From Salinigranum halophilum (GTDB taxonomy: Archaea > Halobacteriota > Halobacteria > Halobacteriales > Haloferacaceae): 64,000 bases of DNA. The translations under genes were made by a program, and so were the position numbers. Below are positions 48,452 to 62,510 of this stretch, piece after piece (within the stretch, counting starts at the first letter, position 1; the number at the start of each line of letters is the position of its first letter). The stretch is taken from contig NZ_SSNL01000008.1 of NCBI RefSeq assembly GCF_007004735.1, positions 1-64,000 of the forward strand. Direction: 5' to 3'. Under the pieces are notes generated by a model that saw nothing but the letters and a program-made list of their open reading frames with translations, did no database searches and had not been told where the DNA came from.

Positions 48452-49831
48452 ATGACGGTAGACACAGTCATCACTGGCGGGACGCTCGTCACCGCGACAG
48501 ACATGTTCGAGGGCTCACTCGCGTTCGACGACGGAAAGATCGTCGCCGTCGGAAGCGAGGCGTCGATGCCCGACGCACACGAGACGGTCGACGCGAGCGG
48601 GTTGCTCGTGATGCCCGGGATGATCGACCCGCACGTCCACATCGAGGACCACTTCTCGATCGACACCTACGAGACGGGGACCGCCGCCGCCGCCCTGGGC
48701 GGCATCACGACGTACATCGACTTCGCCTGGCAACACTGGGTCGGCGAGCTGAGCAACTACGACGAGGAGGGGACGTTGATGGACGGCCTCGAGGAGAAGC
48801 AACGGAAGGGTGAACAGGCGCTCATCGACTACAGCGTCCACGCCGCCATCACCCGCGAGGACCCCGCGGTACTGGACGAACTGGAGACGCTGGTCGACGA
48901 GGGCGTGACGTCGTTCAAGCTCTTCACCGCCTACGAGATCGGCCTCGGCTACGGCTTCATGAACCGCGTCCTCGAACGCATCGCCGACCTCGACGCCGTC
49001 GGGGTGTTCCACACCGAGGACGCCTCGGTCACGGACGAACTCACCGAGCTGTTCATCGAGGAGGGGAAAGGTGACCCGACGTGGTATCCGCAGTCTCGCC
49101 CCGACTACGCCGAGGCGATGGCCGCGAACGACGCCGCCCGGATGGCCCAGGAGGCGGGCGCGAAGTACTACGGTATCCACACGAGCTGCCGGAAGGCGGC
49201 GGACGAACTCGCGAGCTTCCGCGGCGACGGCTCACTCCTCCGCGCCGAGACCTGCACGCACTACCTCGTCTGCGACGACTCCATCTACGAGGACATCGGC
49301 TGTCAGGCGATGATCGCCCCACCGATTCGAAAGCCCGACGACAACGAGGCGATGTTCGAACATCTCAGACACGGAACGCTCGACGTGGTCTCCACCGACC
49401 ACTGCGGCTACTCGCTGGAGTCGAAGCAGGTCGACAACTGGTGGGAGTCGACCTTCGGCGCGAACGGCCTCCAAGGGAGCCTCCCCATCGTCCACGACGA
49501 GGCCGTCGGCAGGCGCGGCTTCTCGTACCCCTGGCTCGTCCGCGTCATGAGCACCAACGTCGCGCAGATATTCGGCATGCCGACGAAAGGGACACTCGAC
49601 CCCGGGACCGACGCCGACGTGGTCCTCTTCGACCCGGACGAGACCTACACCATCACGGCGGCCGACAACGCCTCGAAGGCGGACTTCTCCATCTACGAGG
49701 GTCGCGAGGTGACGGGGAAGGTGAAGCAGACGTTCGTCCGCGGCCACCTCGTGGCGGACGACGGCGAAATCGTCGCCGACCCCGGCACCGGCCAGTTCGT
49801 CGCGCGCGAACTGCCCGACTGGAGCATCTGA
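48452..49831 (+). CDS. Dihydropyrimidinase/hydantoinase-like amidohydrolase
   Basis: The 459-residue cyclic amidohydrolase has DPHVHIEDHF (the HxH metal pair), TSFKLFTAYEIGLGY (the carboxylated Lys position), GVFHTEDASV (His), GIHTSC (His) and STDHCGYS (Asp), which are the binuclear zinc ligands. The amidohydrolase fold starts TVDTVITGGTLVTATD. It hydrolyses a six- or five-membered cyclic ureide (dihydropyrimidine, hydantoin, allantoin type). ATTTATAC at 48418-48425 is the likely TATA element 30 bases before ATG 48452. Confidence 0.9.
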   Translation: MTVDTVITGGTLVTATDMFEGSLAFDDGKIVAVGSEASMPDAHETVDASGLLVMPGMIDPHVHIEDHFSIDTYETGTAAAALGGITTYIDFAWQHWVGELSNYDEEGTLMDGLEEKQRKGEQALIDYSVHAAITREDPAVLDELETLVDEGVTSFKLFTAYEIGLGYGFMNRVLERIADLDAVGVFHTEDASVTDELTELFIEEGKGDPTWYPQSRPDYAEAMAANDAARMAQEAGAKYYGIHTSCRKAADELASFRGDGSLLRAETCTHYLVCDDSIYEDIGCQAMIAPPIRKPDDNEAMFEHLRHGTLDVVSTDHCGYSLESKQVDNWWESTFGANGLQGSLPIVHDEAVGRRGFSYPWLVRVMSTNVAQIFGMPTKGTLDPGTDADVVLFDPDETYTITAADNASKADFSIYEGREVTGKVKQTFVRGHLVADDGEIVADPGTGQFVARELPDWSI

Positions 49832-49910: not shown

Positions 49911-49918
49911 CTTTTACA
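49911..49918 (+). promoter_or_regulatory. TATA element of the chaperonin-like gene
   Basis: CTTTTACA, 28 bases (centre) before the ATG at 49942, supports that ATG over the frame's opening at 49081, which is the shadow of the hydantoinase gene. Confidence 0.5.
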
Positions 49919-49941: not shown

Positions 49942-51714
49942 ATGAGCAGCGTACACGAGGCGTCCCAACCCACCGCGGACGACGCCGACCCACCGGCTCC
50001 CCGCTTCCCCCACGCCAACTGCGTCGCCGTCGACGTCCTCGCTGGCGTTCTCTCGACGGCCTTCGGACCGCTGTCGAGCGACAAGCTCGTCGTGAATCAG
50101 CTCGCGAGCGAGACCGAACCACAGAACCGGGGTGACGTTCCCGCCGACGACCTGGTCGTCACGAGCGACGGCGCGACCCTGCTCGAAGAGCTCCCGGTCA
50201 CGCACCCTATCGCACCCATCGTCCGCCGCGTCCTCGGGCCGGAGCGACCCGGCGACACCGACGTCGTCGGCCAGGACATCCCCGACGGCGTGACCTCGAC
50301 CGTCGTGCTCCTCTCGGCGCTGCTCGACGAGGCGGTCGACCTCGTCGACCGCGGTGTCCACCCCCACGACGTCCGCGCGGGCTACGCGGTCGGCCTCGAC
50401 GCGGCGCTCGCGACACTCGACGCCGAGACGCGGCTCCTCTCGTCGTTCCCCGACGAACGAGCGGTCGAAGAACAGGTCGCCCGCGCTGCGGCGACCGGGA
50501 ACGATGTCGGCGGTCTCGCGGCGCGGTGGGCGTCGACCGTCGTCGACGCGGTCGACCTCGTCGCACGTCCCACCGAGGAGACGTTCGTCGTGCGCACGCT
50601 CAGCACCGGAGCCATCGGCGCGTCGCGGATCGTCGAGGGAGCCGTCCTCAACCGGAACGGTCGCGCGAACGACCAGATGCCTCGGGCGGTGACTGACGCG
50701 ACAGTGCTCCTGCTCGACGGACACGACACGGGGGGGTTGAAAGACCCCGAGTGGGACGAACGAGCGACGCTCGACCTCCGCACGTCGAGTTTCGACGACG
50801 TCGAGGACCTCTACGCCGAGCGCCGGAGGCGCATCGTCGACTCCTACCGCACCCTCGGCGTCGACGTCGTCGTCTGCCGCCTCGGCATCACGCCCCCGTT
50901 CCAGAAACTGCTCGCGGAGGCCGGCATCATGGGCATCAGAAGCGTGAACCGTCTCGACATGCGCCAACTCGCCCGCGCGACCGGCGCGAGCCTCGTCCGC
51001 AACCCCGAAGACGTCGCTCCGACGGACCTCGGGCGCGCGGGACGCGTCGAAGAGGTCCGGGGTGACCCCCGTCGGGGCCGCCGAAAGAACACCGTCATGA
51101 CCGTCTTCGACGAGTGTCCGACCCCCGGTTCCGTGGCCGTCGTCCTCAACGGCGTCTCGGGGCACGTCGCGACGCAGGCGACGACCGAGGTCCGCAAGAT
51201 GGCCGCGGCCGTCGCCGCCGCCCGCGGGGAGGGCAGCCACCGACCGGGCGTCGTCCCCGGTGCGGGTGCCGTCGAGATGGAGCTGGCACGGGCGGTCCGC
51301 GCCCGCGCGACGGGTCTCTCGACGAAGGCACAGCTCGCGGTCGAGGGGATGGCCGACGCCTTCGAGACGGTGGTGGCGACGCTCGCGCGGAACGCCGGTG
51401 CCGACCCCATCGACGCCGTCGCGGACCTCCGGATGGCACACGCCGCCGGCTCCCTCGACGCCGGATTCCTCCTGCCGGAACAGACCGTCGAGAGCGCGAC
51501 CGAAGCCGGCGTCTTCGACCCCGTCGCCTACAAGCGCCGGGGCATCGTGGCGGCGTTCGAGGTTGCGGACCTCGTACTCCGCGTCGACGACGCCATCGAC
51601 GCCACCTTCTCCGACGAGCCGCTCGGCCCCGACGACGTCATCTACGACGACCGTGCGGAGAACCACCTCGACTGGCTCGACGAGAACCCCGGCACCCGCT
51701 GGGACCAGCCGTAA
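49942..51714 (+). CDS. Divergent group II chaperonin (thermosome-like) paralogue
   Basis: The 590-residue product matches the thermosome domain by domain: STAFGPLSSDKLVVN, VVTSDGATLLEELPVTHPIA, PDGVTSTVVLLSALL, VHPHDVRAGYAVGLDAAL, then apical STGAIGASRIVEGAVL and AGIMGIRSVNRLDMRQLARA, and C-terminal VVPGAGAVEMELARAV, GLSTKAQLAVEGMADAFE, AGADPIDAVADLRMAHAAG. The catalytic Asp normally in the HDAL box is not found: the region reads TEVRKMAAAV. The Gly-Gly-Met tail of normal subunits is absent. It may fold or assemble neighbours, or act without full ATP turnover. It lies inside the amide catabolic cluster. Confidence 0.85.
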   Translation: MSSVHEASQPTADDADPPAPRFPHANCVAVDVLAGVLSTAFGPLSSDKLVVNQLASETEPQNRGDVPADDLVVTSDGATLLEELPVTHPIAPIVRRVLGPERPGDTDVVGQDIPDGVTSTVVLLSALLDEAVDLVDRGVHPHDVRAGYAVGLDAALATLDAETRLLSSFPDERAVEEQVARAAATGNDVGGLAARWASTVVDAVDLVARPTEETFVVRTLSTGAIGASRIVEGAVLNRNGRANDQMPRAVTDATVLLLDGHDTGGLKDPEWDERATLDLRTSSFDDVEDLYAERRRRIVDSYRTLGVDVVVCRLGITPPFQKLLAEAGIMGIRSVNRLDMRQLARATGASLVRNPEDVAPTDLGRAGRVEEVRGDPRRGRRKNTVMTVFDECPTPGSVAVVLNGVSGHVATQATTEVRKMAAAVAAARGEGSHRPGVVPGAGAVEMELARAVRARATGLSTKAQLAVEGMADAFETVVATLARNAGADPIDAVADLRMAHAAGSLDAGFLLPEQTVESATEAGVFDPVAYKRRGIVAAFEVADLVLRVDDAIDATFSDEPLGPDDVIYDDRAENHLDWLDENPGTRWDQP

Positions 51715-51836: not shown

Positions 51837-52685
51837 ATGGCGCAAGCTACCGTCTGTCTATCGTACGATTTCGACGCAGTATCGACGTGGCTCTGGTCGT
51901 ATGACTCGTGGGACGAGCCCACGCGGCACTCCCGCGGGGTGTTCGGTGCGGAAGTCGGCGCACCGCGACTGCTCGACCTCCACGACAAGTACGACGTCCC
52001 CGCGACGTGGTTCGTCCCCGGCCACACCATCGAGAGCTTCCCCGAGATCTGTGGCGAGGTGTGGGACCGCGGCGGCGACATCCAACACCACGGCTGGAGC
52101 CACACCGGCCCGGCGACGTTCGAGTCCGAGGAGGACGAGCGCGCCGACGTCGAACGCGCCGTCGACAACATCGTCGACCTCACCGGGCGGAAGCCGACCG
52201 GCTATCGTTCCCCGGCGTGGGACTTCTCGTCGCACACCCTCGACATCCTCGCCGACATCGGCATCCGGTGGGAGTCGTCGAAGATGGCCTCGGACTTCAC
52301 CCCACACTACGTCTACGGTGGCTGGGAGGCCCCGCCGGACGGCCCCTACGTGCGCGGCGAACCGACGGACATCGTCGAACTCCCCGTCTCGTGGCAGCGC
52401 GACGACTGGCCGCCGTTCACCTTCACCTGGGCACGCCCACACCGGATGGGCTACGTCTCTGAGGACTCCATCTTCCGCCGCTGGTACGACCAGTTCGACT
52501 GGATGTACGAGAACGTCGACGACGGCGTCTTCATCCTCACGATGCACCCGCAGGTGATTGGACAGGCCCACCGCATCATGCGCCTCGAGGCGCTCATCCA
52601 GCACATGTCGACGAAGCCTGGCGTCGAGTTCAAACTGATGGACACCGTCGCCGAGGAGTGGCGCGAGGCCAACCCGCCGGCGTAG
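51837..52685 (+). CDS. Polysaccharide deacetylase-fold hydrolase, PuuE-like
   Basis: The 282-residue NodB-fold enzyme has CLSYDFDAVSTWLWS (metal Asp), DIQHHGWSHTGPATF (metal His pair), YRSPAWDFSSHTL and a final HPQVIGQAHRIMRL. This set is shared with PuuE-type allantoinases and similar cyclic amide hydrolases, not with chitin or peptidoglycan deacetylases, which have signal peptides this lacks. It therefore probably opens a ureide ring or removes a group from nitrogen. GTG 51831 is an alternative start two codons upstream of ATG 51837. Confidence 0.83.
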   Translation: MAQATVCLSYDFDAVSTWLWSYDSWDEPTRHSRGVFGAEVGAPRLLDLHDKYDVPATWFVPGHTIESFPEICGEVWDRGGDIQHHGWSHTGPATFESEEDERADVERAVDNIVDLTGRKPTGYRSPAWDFSSHTLDILADIGIRWESSKMASDFTPHYVYGGWEAPPDGPYVRGEPTDIVELPVSWQRDDWPPFTFTWARPHRMGYVSEDSIFRRWYDQFDWMYENVDDGVFILTMHPQVIGQAHRIMRLEALIQHMSTKPGVEFKLMDTVAEEWREANPPA

Positions 52686-54301: not shown

Positions 54302-56131
54302 TCAGTCGCCGCGGCGGTCGGCCGTGGCCTCGGTGTCGAGGCCGCCGTCGACGATGACGACGTCGTACGCCTCGAGCGCCATCTCCTCGGTCAGGAGGCC
54401 GTCGAGGTAGTCCTCGTACACCTGGTCGGCCGAGCGTTCGTGTGGGTCGCCGTACCCGCCACCGCTGGCGGTCTTGATGAGGACGCGGTCACCTTCGGCG
54501 AACTTGTAGCCCGACTCCTTCGAGTTGAGGTCGATGACGTCGCCGTCGGCGGTGATGTGTTTCAGGTCACCGTGCGTCCCGTCCGTGCCTCCAAACAAGC
54601 CGTGTGGCTTATAAGTGTTTCCGTCACCTTCCATCGTCATCACGGCGTCGGTCAGGAACTGCGACTCGCGGACGATACCGATACCGCCGCGGTGGTGGCC
54701 CGCGCCGTGGCCGTCCTCGCGGAGCGCGTACTGTTCGACCCGCATCGGGTGGGAGAGTTCGATGTCCTCGACCGGGCGGTTCTTCGTGTTGTGGACGAGC
54801 GCGTCCACCGCGTCGAGGCCGTCCGCACCCGGTCGCCCGCCGTACGACCCCTCGTTCACCTCCAGGTAGACCCAGTACTCGCCCGCGTCGTTCGTCCCGC
54901 CGTAGGAGACGAAGTACACCTGCCCGCAGGTGCCGGCACAGACCTTGTCCGGAATGGCTTCCGAGAGCGCCTCGATGATGAGGTCGGACATCTTGTCGAC
55001 CTGATTGATGCGGGCGAACGCCGACGTCGGCGGCGTCGGGTTGAACATACAGCCGGGCCGGGCCTTCGGGTGAACGGGCGCGAACGTCCCGGAGTTCTGC
55101 GGGAGATACTCGTCGCGGACGAAGGTGTCCATCAGGATGGAGCGGATGGTGAAGTAGATGCAGACGTCCGTCGAGCCGTGGAACGGGATGTTGTACCCCG
55201 TCGGCGTCTGGTCCGCGGACTTGGACATGTCGACCGTGATGTCCGAGCCGTCGACGGTGACCTCGGCGGCGATTTTCAGGCGCTCGCCCCGGTTGCGACC
55301 GTCGTCGTCGAGGTGGTCCTCGGCGTAGTAGGTGCCGTCGGGGATCTTCCGGATCTCCTTTCGCAAGAGCGCCTCGGCGTAGTCCATCAGCGCCTCGCCG
55401 GTGTGTTGAATCTCGTCGAGACCGTACTTCTCCACGAGCGCGAGGTAGCGGTCCTTCCCGACGTTGCACGAGGAGACCTGCGCCTGCAGGTCGCCGATGA
55501 CCTCTCTCGGAGTGCGGACGTTGTCGCGGATGAAGTTCCAGATCTCCTCGACCCGTTCACCCTCGGAGTACACCTTCGTCGCGCGGAAGAGGCTCCCCTC
55601 GGCGTACATGTCTTCGAGGTCGACCGCGAGGCCGGGCGTGGCAGAGCCGATATCGAGGTGGTGAGCCGTGTTGGCCGCCCACGCGATGTGTTCGCCCTCG
55701 TAGAAGACGGGGACGGCGACGGCGATGTCGGGTGAGTGGCTCGCCCCGTAGTGGGGGTGGTTGTGAATGAACACGTCGCCCTCGTTGATGGCTTCCTCAC
55801 GAGAGATGCCGCGCTCTTCGAACGTGTCGTACATCCCCTGGAGGTAGCCGATGAGCGAGCCGACGTGCATCGGCGTCGAGTCCGACTCACAGAGTTCGCG
55901 GCAGTCGGTCGTGAAGATGCCCGCGCCCATGTCCTCGGACTCGCGGATAATCGAGGAGTACGACGAGCGGATGAGCTTGTAGGCCATCTCCTGGGCGATG
56001 GTGTCGAGTTCGCCGCCGATGACCTGCATGGTCACCGGGTCGATGTCGCGCTCACGGAGGACGTCCGCGGCGGTGGTTTCTCGCTCGTCGTTCGCGTCGG
56101 TGTCGGTGGTGTCGGTCGTGTCTGAGCTCAT
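54302..56131 (-). CDS. hyuB: N-methylhydantoinase B / oxoprolinase beta subunit (HyuB)
   Basis: The 609-residue subunit of the ATP-dependent N-methylhydantoinase/5-oxoprolinase type has the start DIDPVTMQVIGGELDTIAQEMAY, GDVFIHNHPHYGASHSPDIAV, CFYE-type metal region HGAGHHRGGIGIVRE and LIKTASGGGYGDPHERS near the end. Together with HyuA it opens a cyclic amide using ATP. ATG 56131 overlaps the TGA of hyuA (ATGA), so the pair is co-translated. It has an acidic tail at both ends. Confidence 0.93.
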   Translation of the reverse strand: MSSDTTDTTDTDANDERETTAADVLRERDIDPVTMQVIGGELDTIAQEMAYKLIRSSYSSIIRESEDMGAGIFTTDCRELCESDSTPMHVGSLIGYLQGMYDTFEERGISREEAINEGDVFIHNHPHYGASHSPDIAVAVPVFYEGEHIAWAANTAHHLDIGSATPGLAVDLEDMYAEGSLFRATKVYSEGERVEEIWNFIRDNVRTPREVIGDLQAQVSSCNVGKDRYLALVEKYGLDEIQHTGEALMDYAEALLRKEIRKIPDGTYYAEDHLDDDGRNRGERLKIAAEVTVDGSDITVDMSKSADQTPTGYNIPFHGSTDVCIYFTIRSILMDTFVRDEYLPQNSGTFAPVHPKARPGCMFNPTPPTSAFARINQVDKMSDLIIEALSEAIPDKVCAGTCGQVYFVSYGGTNDAGEYWVYLEVNEGSYGGRPGADGLDAVDALVHNTKNRPVEDIELSHPMRVEQYALREDGHGAGHHRGGIGIVRESQFLTDAVMTMEGDGNTYKPHGLFGGTDGTHGDLKHITADGDVIDLNSKESGYKFAEGDRVLIKTASGGGYGDPHERSADQVYEDYLDGLLTEEMALEAYDVVIVDGGLDTEATADRRGD

Positions 56132-58227
56132 GGTTCGAACCTCAGTTCGATGCCGCCGTTGTCGACAACCGTGGCCGTCCACCCCGGGTGGACGACGACG
56201 GTGCTGTCGAACTCGTCGATGACGGCGGGGCCGGTGACGACGTTCCCCCGCTTCAGCAGGTCGCGGTCGTACCGCGTGACCATCACCGATTCGGGAGCGA
56301 GGGACGTCCCGAAGACGACGCGCGACTCGGTCGTCGCGGCGTCGGAGGCGTCCTCGTCGCCGGCGGCGACCTCGCGTGGGGTGTAGGATTCGATCTCGCC
56401 CACGGCCGTCACGCGGAGGTTGAGCAGTTCGACCGGGTCGGCCTCGAAGTAGTGGCCGTACTCGGCTTCGTGCTTCCGTTCGAACTGCTGTCTGACGCGT
56501 TGATGCCAATCGCCGTCGGTTCCCTCGAAGGGGACGTTCAGCTCGTACCCCTGGCCCTCGTACAGGCAGTCGACGGTCCGTTCGAACCGCCAGCGCGACT
56601 CGTCGACCTCGTCGCGGGTGAGCTGTTCTCTGCCCCTCGCTTCGAGGCGGTCGAACGTCTCGTCGATGTACCCGCCGTCGACGGTTTCCAGTCGCTGGCT
56701 CACCGTCTGCTGGACGTCGTACTTGACGTTGCCGGTGAGGAGCCCACGTGCGGAGGCGATACCGGGAGCCGGCGGGACGATGACGGTGTCGACTTCCAGT
56801 TCCTCGGCGATGCTCGCGGCGTGCATCGGGCCGGCCCCGCCGAACGCAACGATGGTGTACTCGCGGGGGTCGTAGCCGCGCTGGACGGTCTGTTCGCGGA
56901 TGGCTCGGTACATGTTCGTGTTCGCCACTTCGAGCGTCGCGAGCGCGGCGCGCTCGACCGCCTCGAACCGCTCCTGGTCGGTGGCGTCCACCAGCTTCGA
57001 CTGGATGGCCTGGTGGGAGCGTTCGGGGTCGAGGTCGAGGTCGCCGCCGAGGAAGGAGTCGGGGTCGATTCGCCCCAACACGACCTGGGCGTCGGTCGTC
57101 GTCGGCTGGTCGTTGCCACGGCCGTAGCAGGCCGGCCCGGGGTCAGCCCCGGCGCTCTTCGGGCCGACGTTGAACCCCATCGCCCCGTCGAACCAGGCGA
57201 TGGAGCCGCCGCCGGCCCCGATGGTCTCGATGTCGAGCATCGGGACGATGGTCGGGTAGCCGCCGACGGTGCTGTCGCGCGGGTCGCGTTCGAGGACTCG
57301 CCCCGGAAGGACCGAGATGTCCGCCGACGTCCCGCCCATGTCGAGGGCGATGAGGTTCGAGCGGTCGAGGGCGTTCCCTTCGAACTGCGCGGAGAGCACC
57401 CCGGCCGCGGGGCCGGAGACGAGCGTCGTGACGGGGCGTCGGGCGACGTTGCGAACGCTCGCCATCCCGCCGTTCGACTGCATGATGAGCACCTCCGCGT
57501 CGCAGCCCGCCTCAGCGAGTCGCTCCTGCAGGCGGGTGAGGTACGTCGCCATCACGGGCTCGAGTCGGGCGTTGATGGCCGTCGTCGTGAAGCGCTCGAA
57601 CTCGCGGAACTGCGAGACGACCTCGTGGGAAGTCGAGACGCGCACGTCGGGGTACGCCGTCGCGATGAGTTCGCGGGTACGCGCTTCGTGTGTCGGGTCG
57701 AGGTACGAGTGGAGGTAACAGACGGCGATGGACTCGACGCCCGCGTCGACCAGTTCGGCCGTGCGGTCGAGCACCTCGTCCTCGTCGAGCGGGGTGACCA
57801 CGTCTCCGGGCGGATAGATGCGCTCTGTCACCTCCTTCCGGTGGCGACGCTTGACCACGGGGTTCTCCTGCCACGGGATGGTCTGCTGGAGCGAGAAACT
57901 GTGCGGTTTCCGGTGGCGGCCGATGTGGAGCACGTCGCGGAAGCCCTTGGTCGTCAGCAGCCCCGTCTCTGCGCCCTCGTGTTCGATGAGCGCGTTCGTC
58001 GCGACCGTCGTGCCGTGGAGGACCTGCCCGACCTCGCTGGGGTCGACGCCCGCGAGCGCACAGAGTTCGACGATGCCCGTCACCGTCGACTCCGAGGGGT
58101 CCGCCGTCGACGGCGTCTTGTGACTGTACTCCCCCTCGTCCGACACGAGGATGAGGTCGGTGTTCGTCCCGCCGACGTCGACACCGACCCGGATGCGAGG
58201 CTGCCGCCGAGTGCTGTGGCTTCCCAT
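56128..58227 (-). CDS. hyuA: N-methylhydantoinase A / oxoprolinase alpha subunit (HyuA)
   Basis: The 699-residue ATP-binding subunit has an actin/Hsp70-like ATPase fold. IRVGVDVGGTNTDLILV is the phosphate loop, GTTVATNALIEHEGA follows, and NLIALDMGGTSADISVL is the second phosphate motif; FGGAGPMHAASIAEEL is further on. With HyuB it hydrolyses hydantoin, N-methylhydantoin or 5-oxoproline rings. TATA-like CTATAAC at 58254-58260 lies about 30 bases before ATG 58227. It is the first gene of the minus-strand pair. Confidence 0.94.
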   Translation of the reverse strand: MGSHSTRRQPRIRVGVDVGGTNTDLILVSDEGEYSHKTPSTADPSESTVTGIVELCALAGVDPSEVGQVLHGTTVATNALIEHEGAETGLLTTKGFRDVLHIGRHRKPHSFSLQQTIPWQENPVVKRRHRKEVTERIYPPGDVVTPLDEDEVLDRTAELVDAGVESIAVCYLHSYLDPTHEARTRELIATAYPDVRVSTSHEVVSQFREFERFTTTAINARLEPVMATYLTRLQERLAEAGCDAEVLIMQSNGGMASVRNVARRPVTTLVSGPAAGVLSAQFEGNALDRSNLIALDMGGTSADISVLPGRVLERDPRDSTVGGYPTIVPMLDIETIGAGGGSIAWFDGAMGFNVGPKSAGADPGPACYGRGNDQPTTTDAQVVLGRIDPDSFLGGDLDLDPERSHQAIQSKLVDATDQERFEAVERAALATLEVANTNMYRAIREQTVQRGYDPREYTIVAFGGAGPMHAASIAEELEVDTVIVPPAPGIASARGLLTGNVKYDVQQTVSQRLETVDGGYIDETFDRLEARGREQLTRDEVDESRWRFERTVDCLYEGQGYELNVPFEGTDGDWHQRVRQQFERKHEAEYGHYFEADPVELLNLRVTAVGEIESYTPREVAAGDEDASDAATTESRVVFGTSLAPESVMVTRYDRDLLKRGNVVTGPAVIDEFDSTVVVHPGWTATVVDNGGIELRFEP

Positions 58228-59492: not shown

Positions 59493-59609
59493 GGTGAGTC
59501 GCGCTCGTCTCGACGGCCGCGCGGACGGGACCGCTCACCGAGTCACACGCTGGTCCGTTCGGAGAACCGGCGCACAGAGTTATATCACACTTGCTCGAAC
59601 TGAGAGGCG

Positions 59610-60044
59610 ATGATCGAGCGCGTACTGATCGCTGTCGGAGAGGAACGGATGCACGTCGAGGAGATTACCGAACACGCGGTGGAGATCGCGAGCGCGCTGG
59701 GTGCGGCCGTGACCCTCCTCCAGGTGTACTCCGAGTCGGAGTTCGACGACATCCTCGACGGGATGGAGTACGAGTCGGCCGACCCGACCCACATCGCGAA
59801 ACGAAACAGCGTCGTGCGGGACGCGGCGAGCCTCGTCCGGGCGGCGGCGGTCGACCTCGACGTGGTGGGGAAGGTCGGCGTGCCCGCCGAGGAGGTGGCG
59901 GACTACGTGAGCGACCACGACATCGACCACGTGTTCATCGGCGGGCGGAAGCGCCGACCCACCGGAAAGGCGCTGTTGGGGAGTACGAGCCAGGACATCC
60001 TGCTCGCGCTCGACGTCCCCTGTACGGTGTTCCAACTCGGCTGA
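59610..60044 (+). CDS. Universal stress protein A family
   Basis: The 144-residue UspA domain begins IERVLIAVGEERMHVEEITEH and has the ATP-binding loop GGRKRRPTGKALLGSTSQDILL (G-2x-G-9x-G-S/T). AGTTATATC at 59579-59587, about 27 bases before ATG 59610, makes it leaderless. It is read alone and lies 110 bases before the two ABC ATPases. Confidence 0.9.
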   Translation: MIERVLIAVGEERMHVEEITEHAVEIASALGAAVTLLQVYSESEFDDILDGMEYESADPTHIAKRNSVVRDAASLVRAAAVDLDVVGKVGVPAEEVADYVSDHDIDHVFIGGRKRRPTGKALLGSTSQDILLALDVPCTVFQLG

Positions 60045-60154
60045 GGCGCTACGCGTGGGATTCGTCTCCGGTACCCCCAGAGATGTGTCGAGTTGACACG
60101 TCTCGTGGTACCGCTCCCCAAAACGTTAACACCGCCGTTATCCTTCACAGCAGC

Positions 60155-61309
60155 ATGAGCGTCGCTCGCGAAGTAGAACGTATCATCTCTGTGACTTCAC
60201 TGGAGAAGTCATTCTCGAACGAACAGGTGCTCAGAGGCATCGACTTCTCGGTGGAAGACGGCGAGTTCTGCGTCGTCGTCGGTCCCTCCGGGTCGGGGAA
60301 GTCGACGCTGTTGAAGTGCATCGCCGGCCTCGTCGAGTTCGACCGCGGTTCCATCTCTCTCGGCGGGCGGGACGTCGGAGAACTCTCGGTCCCCGACAGA
60401 GACCTCGGGTTCGTCTTCCAGGACTTCGAGGAACGGCTCTTCCCGCACATGACCGTCGCCGAGAACGTCGCGTTCGGACTCCGACAGGCGGGCGTGAGCG
60501 AGGCCGAAATCGAGACGAAGACCGACGACATGCTCGAACTGCTCGCCATCTCGGAGACGCGCGACAGCCTCCCAGCCGAACTCTCGGGGGGGCAACAGCA
60601 GCGGGTCGAACTCGCCCGGCAACTCGTCCGCGAGTGCGACGTGATGCTGCTCGACGACCCCCTCGCCGACCTCGACTACAAGCTACAGAAGCGGATGGAA
60701 CTGGAGATGCGGCAGATCCACGAGGAGCTGGGGAGCACGTTCGTCTACGTCACCCACAACCAGGACCAGGCGCTGAAGCTCGCGGACAAGCTCGTCGTCG
60801 TCAACCAGGGGCTCATCGAGCAGGTCGGCACCCCCGACGAGGTGTACGCAGAGCCCGCGACGGCGTTCGTCGGCCGGTTCGTCGGCGACTCGAACCCGCT
60901 GTTGGGAACCGTCACCGCCGTCGACGGCGACACGTTGACCGTCGAGACGCCGGTGGGGTCGGTGGTGGCGGCCACCCGCGACGACGGCGTCGAACCGGGG
61001 GCGGAGGTCGTCGTGCTCGTCCGGCCCGAGTCGGTCCGACTCGGGGACGCGGCCGACGGCTGTGACAACACGTTCGCCGGCGACGTCGCCGGCCGCACCT
61101 ACACGGGCGAGGTGACGGAGTTCACCGTCTCGCTCGACACCCGGGGCGAGACGGACGTCGAGGACTTCCAGTCCGTCACGAGCGGGAACGTCCCGATGGA
61201 GACAGTGCAGTCGCGGACCTCGGTCGGGTGGAACGCCGACGAGGGCGTGGCGTACGCGAAGCTGAGCGTGAGCGACACCGCGACCGTCGACGACCTGATG
61301 GAGGTGTGA
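60155..61309 (+). CDS. ABC transporter ATPase, first of a tandem pair (degenerate catalytic glutamate)
   Basis: The 384-residue PotA/MalK-type ATPase has Walker A GPSGSGKST, signature LSGGQQQRVELAR, Walker B VMLLDDPLADLD, switch His YVTHNQDQA and a C-terminal TOBE-like domain (VRPESVRLGD). The catalytic residue after Walker B is Asp (LLDDP) where the family has Glu (LLDEP), so ATP hydrolysis at this site is likely reduced. The next gene, 1 base away, encodes a canonical partner; the two probably form a heterodimer with one strong site. Confidence 0.9.
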   Translation: MSVAREVERIISVTSLEKSFSNEQVLRGIDFSVEDGEFCVVVGPSGSGKSTLLKCIAGLVEFDRGSISLGGRDVGELSVPDRDLGFVFQDFEERLFPHMTVAENVAFGLRQAGVSEAEIETKTDDMLELLAISETRDSLPAELSGGQQQRVELARQLVRECDVMLLDDPLADLDYKLQKRMELEMRQIHEELGSTFVYVTHNQDQALKLADKLVVVNQGLIEQVGTPDEVYAEPATAFVGRFVGDSNPLLGTVTAVDGDTLTVETPVGSVVAATRDDGVEPGAEVVVLVRPESVRLGDAADGCDNTFAGDVAGRTYTGEVTEFTVSLDTRGETDVEDFQSVTSGNVPMETVQSRTSVGWNADEGVAYAKLSVSDTATVDDLMEV

Positions 61310-61310
61310 G

Positions 61311-62510
61311 ATGTCGGACTCAGACCTCACCCGGCGGCCCCCAGAGACTGACGCCGACACCGACCGGAACGACGTCCTTCGCGTGGAGGGGCTCACGAAG
61401 ATCTACCCCGACGGGACCCTCGCCGTCGACGACATCGACTTCGCGATCAAGGAGGGCGACTTCTGTGTCATCATCGGCCCCTCCGGCTGTGGGAAGTCGA
61501 CGACACTCCACTCGCTCGTCGGGAAGATTCCGCCCACCGAGGGTGCGGTCATCCTCGACGGCGTCGACATCACCGACACCCCGACGTACCAGCGCGACAT
61601 CGGGCTCGTCTTCCAGGACTTCCAGCTGTTTCCCCACCTGAACGTCGAGGAGAACATCACCTACGGCCTGAAGCGGATGAACGCGCCGCAGGACGTCGTC
61701 GACGAGCGGCTGTCGAACGTGCTGGAGATGATGCAACTGGACGAACTCCGCAAGCGCGCGCCGCGGGAACTGTCCGCCGGGCAGAAACAGCGGGTCGCGC
61801 TGGCGCGGAGTCTCGTACTCGAACCCAAACTCCTCCTCTTAGACGAGCCGCTGGGTGACATGGACTACAAGCTCCAGAAGCGGATGGAGCGGGAACTGCT
61901 TCGCATCCACCGTGAACTCGGCACCACGTTCGTCTACGTGACGCACGACCAGACGCAGGCGATGCGGCTGGCCGACCAGATCATCGTGATGAACGGCGGG
62001 AAGGTCGAACACTCCGGACCCGTCGAGGAGGTGTACAACCGCCCGAAGACCGCGTTCGTGGCGACGTTCGTCGGTGACTCGAACCTCTTCTTCGGCGAGC
62101 TCGTGAGTGTGAGCGACGACGGCGAGACGGCGGCGATGGAGACGGGACTGGGGACGTTCACCGTCAGTACGGCGAACCTCGTCTCCGAGCCACGAGACGT
62201 CGTGGGTGACCGGATGCCGTTCGCCGTGCGGCCGCAGTATCTCCGCCTCGTCGACCCGGGCGAGACGGACAACGCCATCGACTGTGACGTCGAGGACGTC
62301 CTCTACCAGTCGGGCACGGGGACGCAGGTCATCCTCTCCGCGACGGACGCCGACGGGAGCACCGTCGAGCTCCAGCTCAAGTCCGAGGACCGACTGACGG
62401 TCGACAGCGAGGCGGTCACCGTCGGCTGGGACCCCGAACACACCATCCTGCTCGAACGGCCGAGCGTGGTGGAGGGCATCGACCTCGAGAAGGACATCCT
62501 CGGGCAGTAA
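61311..62510 (+). CDS. ABC transporter ATPase, second of a tandem pair
   Basis: The 399-residue PotA/MalK-type ATPase has GPSGCGKSTT (Walker A), LLLLDEPLGDMDYKLQKRM (Walker B with Glu), YVTHDQTQA (switch His) and a TOBE domain (MPFAVRPQYLRLVD). Its signature is LSAGQKQR instead of LSGGQ. With the previous gene it likely forms a heterodimer in which the sites differ. No permease or binding protein is adjacent; these may lie beyond 64 kb or elsewhere. DYKLQKRME is identical in both genes, pointing to duplication. Confidence 0.9.
   Translation: MSDSDLTRRPPETDADTDRNDVLRVEGLTKIYPDGTLAVDDIDFAIKEGDFCVIIGPSGCGKSTTLHSLVGKIPPTEGAVILDGVDITDTPTYQRDIGLVFQDFQLFPHLNVEENITYGLKRMNAPQDVVDERLSNVLEMMQLDELRKRAPRELSAGQKQRVALARSLVLEPKLLLLDEPLGDMDYKLQKRMERELLRIHRELGTTFVYVTHDQTQAMRLADQIIVMNGGKVEHSGPVEEVYNRPKTAFVATFVGDSNLFFGELVSVSDDGETAAMETGLGTFTVSTANLVSEPRDVVGDRMPFAVRPQYLRLVDPGETDNAIDCDVEDVLYQSGTGTQVILSATDADGSTVELQLKSEDRLTVDSEAVTVGWDPEHTILLERPSVVEGIDLEKDILGQ

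Follow-up and report, generated by a model that had tools for sequence, protein, structure and literature searches.

A haloarchaeal group II chaperonin paralogue that has very likely lost ATP hydrolysis and is co-inherited with one PotABCD-type ABC importer

Group II chaperonins are generally viewed as all-purpose folding machines powered by ATP. The window analyzed here, a 64,000-nucleotide stretch from Salinigranum halophilum, encodes a conserved paralogue of these proteins that has very likely lost the ability to hydrolyze ATP and that, across the genomes compared, is inherited together with a single PotABCD-type ABC importer. The reading given a slight preference here is that this protein is a client-dedicated, non-hydrolyzing subunit for the assembly of that one importer.

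The gene begins with an ATG, encodes a protein of 590 amino acids, and is preceded by a promoter-like element:

49942..51714, + strand: gene for a predicted ATPase-defective group II chaperonin homologue (PF00118, PDB relatives, Foldseek, dN/dS)
49912..49917, + strand: TATA-like TTTTAC, ~28 bases 5′ of the ATG (read from the sequence)

The TTTTAC element would fit the chaperonin gene having its own leaderless haloarchaeal transcript. By homology the protein is a member of the group II chaperonin superfamily, and the original prediction of a chaperonin from end to end is well supported, with residues 33–554 matching positions 1–488 of the 490 in the Pfam Cpn60_TCP1 profile (PF00118; E 9.5e-93). 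Its top-scoring sequence relatives in the PDB are group II chaperonins, and Foldseek returned Mm-cpn and thermosomes first (TM 0.70–0.73 by query) with a structure model of pLDDT 72 and pTM 0.70 that is poor over residues 1–117 and falls below a pLDDT of 50 at residues 38–92 and 95–117, the region of Asp76 and Asp115. The curated NCBIfam thermosome cut-offs were missed by far (277.6 of 671.1 bits for TIGR02339, 285 of 450 for NF041082, and 265.8 of 400 for NF041083), and the protein was not classed as a thermosome subunit, since the catalytic Asp, the GDGTT motif, and the sensor Lys were each looked for and found to be missing.

The changes at the ATP site, together with several others and one retained residue, are distributed along the protein as follows:

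50107..50148, + strand: equatorial stem-loop insert of ~14 residues (56–69), lacking in ordinary thermosomes (alignment)
50167..50169, + strand: Asp76 of the DGAT motif, kept in all members (two alignments)
50248..50271, + strand: conserved 8-residue insert PGDTDVVG (residues 103–110), directly before the P-loop (alignment)
50281..50292, + strand: altered P-loop PDGV (residues 114–117) for GDGT, with Asp115 and Gly116 retained (alignment)
50494..50505, + strand: TGND (residues 185–188), replacing TGKG of the nucleotide-sensing loop in all members (alignment)
51193..51198, + strand: Arg418-Lys419, replacing (E/D/N)-Asp of the intermediate domain (alignment)
51235..51246, + strand: 4-residue insert (residues 432–435) before the nucleotide-binding VVPGAGA (alignment)
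51610..51711, + strand: C-terminal tail (residues 557–590) in place of the GGM repeats, with Y568 and an acidic YDE.AE.H partly conserved (alignment)

In alignments that include PDB chaperonins and ordinary thermosomes from the same genome and its relatives, Lys419 (in TEVRKMAA) pairs gaplessly with the catalytic Asp of haloarchaeal and outgroup thermosomes (RAIEDSLG, RAINDAID); therefore, no shifted gap conceals an Asp, and an alignment restoring the residue in that way was ruled out. The original prediction had noted that the Asp of the HDAL segment was missing, that a short insert stood before VVPGAGA, and that the Gly-Gly-Met tail was absent, and each of these observations held up. Unnoticed at that stage were the PDGVT and TGND sequences and the inserts before the P-loop and in the stem loop. 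Among the orthologues described below, the catalytic position is Lys everywhere except in two Halarchaeum members, which have Gln. The GDGTT of the P-loop, which reads PDGVT here, is (P/Y/F/T)DG(V/I) across the family, the phosphate-sensing Lys of TGKG is Asn in every orthologue, and P103, G104, T106, and G110 are invariant within the pre-P-loop insert in two family alignments. The family retains Asp76, Asp115 with Gly116, the greater part of the GGGA segment, the C-terminal LR(V/I)DD segment, and the complete layout of three domains. Mm-cpn carrying the D386A change still binds ATP but does not hydrolyze it (PMC5019054); the GDGTTT of the P-loop and the Lys of the nucleotide-sensing loop contact the phosphates (PMC5635000). 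Given these known roles of the lost residues, it is very likely that ATP hydrolysis has been lost; residual nucleotide binding is possible, and rings might form less readily with the P-loop and stem loop altered.

Eight further orthologues, with 63 to 40% identity and clear of other chaperonins, were found among 292 haloarchaeal genomes. Below these come other chaperonins, most of them ordinary thermosomes, which reach no more than 39% identity and roughly half the weakest orthologue's bit score. GTDB species genomes, when scanned, yielded 11 loci, all of them haloarchaeal, and annotated plasmids added orthologues from Haladaptatus, Halarchaeum, Natronorubrum, Haloarcula litorea, and Halobellus limi. 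The distribution is accessory, patchy, and often plasmid-borne, and the host genome keeps three ordinary CCT genes. Some 20 haloarchaeal orthologues repeat the same changes, with the reading frame intact in ~20 species or strains. In the tree, the 17 family rows form a single clade (support 100/100, stem of 0.88 changes per column) that lies within the haloarchaeal chaperonin radiation yet outside CCT1, 2, and 3; the absence of any clustering with CCT1–3 agrees with the original prediction, and an identity as an ordinary CCT subunit was rejected. Values of dN/dS are 0.09–0.16 among close orthologue pairs (0.38 for the window and Halobium, a distant pair for which the value is unreliable), and these substitution rates place the family under purifying selection. 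The sharing of the changes by ~20 orthologues, the 100/100 clade, and a dN/dS of ~0.1 together argue against both an alignment slip and a decaying gene. Within the family, moreover, the equatorial domain is conserved no better than the apical domain (0.50 vs 0.48; 0.76–0.80 vs 0.66 in ordinary CCT1/2-like subunits), as would follow if the sequence were freed from the constraint of ATP turnover.

The evidence for a dedicated role comes from the company that the gene keeps. The importer consists of two ATPases (PotA1 and PotA2), two permeases, and one binding protein, and in the window its ATPase genes are found as follows:

59591..61309, + strand: PotA1, one of the two importer ATPases; its Walker B is DDP and its Q-loop has a 2-residue insert (homologous part starting near 60.15 kb)
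61311..62510, + strand: PotA2, the other importer ATPase, with DEP as Walker B and LSAGQ as signature (gene labelling and alignment)

Importer genes are present in all 22 chaperonin loci compared, a set in which Natronorubrum bangense was entered twice and some strains are alike, and the full set is found wherever the sequence compared extends far enough. Many loci have the two permease genes immediately on either side of the chaperonin gene, which is on the other strand; in two genomes (G259 and G125) a permease lies ~20 kb off, and over the 22 loci the gene order around the chaperonin breaks up between lineages. A PotB orthologue of at least 61% identity occurs in exactly the nine of 292 genomes that carry the chaperonin, which span three family groups and are not independent samples, and in none of the other 283, where the next best match is 38%. 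Pairwise distances for the chaperonin likewise track those for the importer, with r of 0.96 for PotA1, 0.92 for PotA2, and 0.83–0.92 for the rest (permutation p 0.001). The comparison of genomes thus demonstrates strict co-inheritance of the chaperonin with one importer, and this constant association suggests specialization for a single transporter rather than general folding. The linkage points to the cluster without naming the client inside it, and it counts against an importer client that in the window genome the PotA1 and PotA2 genes lie 9–11 kb from the chaperonin, with a hydantoinase and a deacetylase gene adjoining it. The importer itself scores against the PotA, PotB, and PotC spermidine/putrescine models, below their curated cut-offs. 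In all loci PotA1 has DDP, the 2-residue Q-loop insert, and LSGGQ, and PotA2 has DEP and LSAGQ; from these unequal motifs, one regular and one degenerate ATP site are predicted in the heterodimer. Asymmetric ATP sites of this sort are known mainly from ABC exporters.

On the preferred reading, the chaperonin would capture and pair the soluble ATPases PotA1 and PotA2, which would have to heterodimerize and not homodimerize. Alone it would be unable to run a fold-and-release ATP cycle, and it would most likely act as a client-recognition or holding subunit within mixed rings in which the ATP would be hydrolyzed by the cell's ordinary CCT subunits. It is also conceivable that Lys419 neutralizes Asp76 and Asp115 in the emptied Mg-ATP site, fixing the subunit in one state, although the structure model is of low confidence there. 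CCT complexes with one ATPase-dead subunit have been assembled and characterized (PMC5413064), and P-loop changes influence which thermosome subunits co-assemble (PMC5983026). The most serious competitor, judged to be rather unlikely, dispenses with the ring altogether and sees the protein as a scaffold, holdase, or regulator that would act on the importer or on enzymes of the cluster as a single subunit or small oligomer. The stem-loop and P-loop inserts and the lost P-loop residues fall in regions involved in ring assembly (PMC5983026) and the GGM tail is gone, as such a protein might be expected to show, but the LR(V/I)DD segment and the three-domain layout have been retained.

Other genes of the window encode catabolic enzymes, whose linkage to the chaperonin is looser than that of the importer:

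48452..49831, + strand: dihydropyrimidinase/hydantoinase-like gene, upstream of the chaperonin gene and a partner in some loci only
51837..52685, + strand: polysaccharide-deacetylase/PuuE-like gene, downstream and a frequent but non-constant partner
54302..56122, − strand: HyuB/caprolactamase-beta-like gene (gene labelling)
56128..58227, − strand: HyuA/caprolactamase-alpha-like gene, a partner in many but not all loci

The original prediction had described the two immediate neighbors correctly and had proposed a dedicated or pseudo-ATPase chaperonin for amide hydrolases; the residues for ATP hydrolysis are indeed gone, but the dedication to amide hydrolases has fared less well. That the chaperonin serves HyuA/HyuB, the hydantoinase, or the amidase is now considered doubtful, and clearly more so than the ring-free proposal. 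It draws on the position of the window gene directly between hydantoinase and deacetylase and on the presence of a HyuA orthologue of at least 63% identity in eight of the nine chaperonin-bearing genomes, the ninth having a relative of 49%. Against it, the presence of HyuA/HyuB, hydantoinase, amidase, deacetylase, and asparaginase varies among the 22 loci, and for HyuA/HyuB at least seven loci have neither gene in the vicinity of the chaperonin (two in Halarchaeum and one each in a Natronomonas MAG, Halorussus salinisoli, Haladaptatus halobius, Haloarcula litorea, and genome G271), several of which have the importer and no other hydantoinase. Furthermore, genome G137 has a HyuA orthologue of 63% and no chaperonin orthologue. 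Amide hydrolases were thus unsupported as a constant partner, as was the deacetylase, relatives of which occur in 44 genomes and which does not neighbor the chaperonin in the Halobellus loci, Haloarcula litorea, or the Natronomonas MAG. A second, more distant HyuA/HyuB pair is found just past the importer genes in this genome (contig C7, 71.4–73.6 kb; L044).

Far less probable still is an ATPase that remains active by means of other residues. The retention of Asp76 and Asp115, two acidic residues of the pocket, and the invariance of most of the GGGA segment would suit such an enzyme, but the catalytic Asp, the P-loop Thr, and the sensor Lys have all been lost together, and the Asp change alone is enough to abolish hydrolysis by Mm-cpn (PMC5019054). 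Finally, a decaying duplicate hitch-hiking with a mobile catabolic cluster would account for the patchy, often plasmid-borne distribution but was rejected as hardly credible on the dN/dS of ~0.1, alongside the intact frames and the invariance of the new motifs.

Other divergent chaperonins of haloarchaea are also found beside importers. A second case in the same genome (contig C3, L069:5402-13079) comprises an operon of potA, a binding protein gene, potB, and potC and then two adjacent divergent chaperonins, all on one strand; the two proteins, of 551 and 526 amino acids, have Ala and Thr, respectively, in place of the catalytic Asp, and genome G003 possesses a 43% orthologue of the first that likewise adjoins a Pot-type importer (L099). 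Tandem divergent pairs in opposite orientation occur in 11 of the 292 genomes and usually adjoin a UgpC-type sugar importer; in these pairs (L063, L064, L100-L110), one subunit usually keeps the catalytic Asp and has lost the sensor Lys, and its partner is without both the catalytic Asp and the Asp of DGAT. Further divergent chaperonins adjoin UgpC-type or dipeptide-type importers or lie directly 3′ of a formamidase gene. A third divergent type (L065:8932-10548, L066:8218-9864, and L022), whose tail is GGYPWA(V/I)(G/S)H or a variant of it instead of GGM, directly follows fmdA in two of its three loci (Haloarcula marismortui and Natronomonas pharaonis). On a plasmid of Halorussus vallis (L074:8920-10539), two dipeptide-type ABC operons flank a chaperonin whose catalytic motifs are intact, and a chaperonin gene in several pieces (G034:C13:673-2471) is probably a pseudogene. 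In three sets of these divergent chaperonins, 12 of 13, 2 of 2, and 5 of 8 loci have an importer gene within 6 kb, as compared with none of 20 for ordinary thermosomes. Taking the thermosomes as the sole background would overstate the contrast, since plasmids hold more ABC genes: a count by hand over four arbitrary plasmid stretches of 50 kb placed ~37% of positions within 6 kb of an ABC gene and ~10 of 176 genes directly adjacent to one. All divergent chaperonins group together in the tree (87/97), a result not trusted because of the long branches. It is therefore only tentatively suggested, at slightly less than even chances, that haloarchaea possess a class of chaperonin paralogues, present in several lineages and each serving one ABC importer or catabolic cluster, that would be client-dedicated and partly non-ATPase and would include non-hydrolyzing single genes and tandem pairs in which one member usually has the catalytic Asp and the other does not. 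Such a general importer-linked class is less certain than the window family, which has its own, stronger evidence.

Compared with the thermosome and CCT (PF00118), the protein shares the full-length fold, the apical, intermediate, and equatorial domains, DGAT, GGGA, and the C-terminal LRIDD, and it differs in lacking the catalytic Asp, GDGTT, TGKG, and the GGM tail and in its three added inserts. Group III chaperonins, the bacterial thermosome-like proteins, resemble it in their built-in lid and group II-like fold; in them the catalytic Asp pair and GDGTTT are intact and the nucleotide-sensing loop is shortened (PMC5635000), whereas here the sensing loop is of group II length and the catalytic Asp and GDGTTT have been lost, and by alignment at these three features the protein does not belong with group III. 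The vertebrate MKKS, BBS10, and BBS12 are likewise divergent group II paralogues that are not general folding subunits, and the GDGT motif is altered in MKKS and BBS12 (PMC2846930). Unlike these, the haloarchaeal protein is prokaryotic, of separate origin within the haloarchaea, and linked to an ABC importer, and that importer in turn differs from the PotABCD importers of spermidine and putrescine in having two unequal ATPase genes and, as proposed, a dedicated chaperonin. To our knowledge, vertebrates provide the only known examples of dedicated chaperonin-like proteins whose ATP site is not intact. A search of the open-licence literature, the coverage of which is incomplete, returned no paper on transporter- or hydantoinase-linked chaperonins of this kind in haloarchaea. 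As the gene is carried by culturable haloarchaea, the proposal is open to experiment. If it is true, the family would show what a chaperonin subunit does without hydrolysis, and it would raise the questions of whether a specialized subunit can re-target rings and how heterodimeric ABC ATPases find the right partner.
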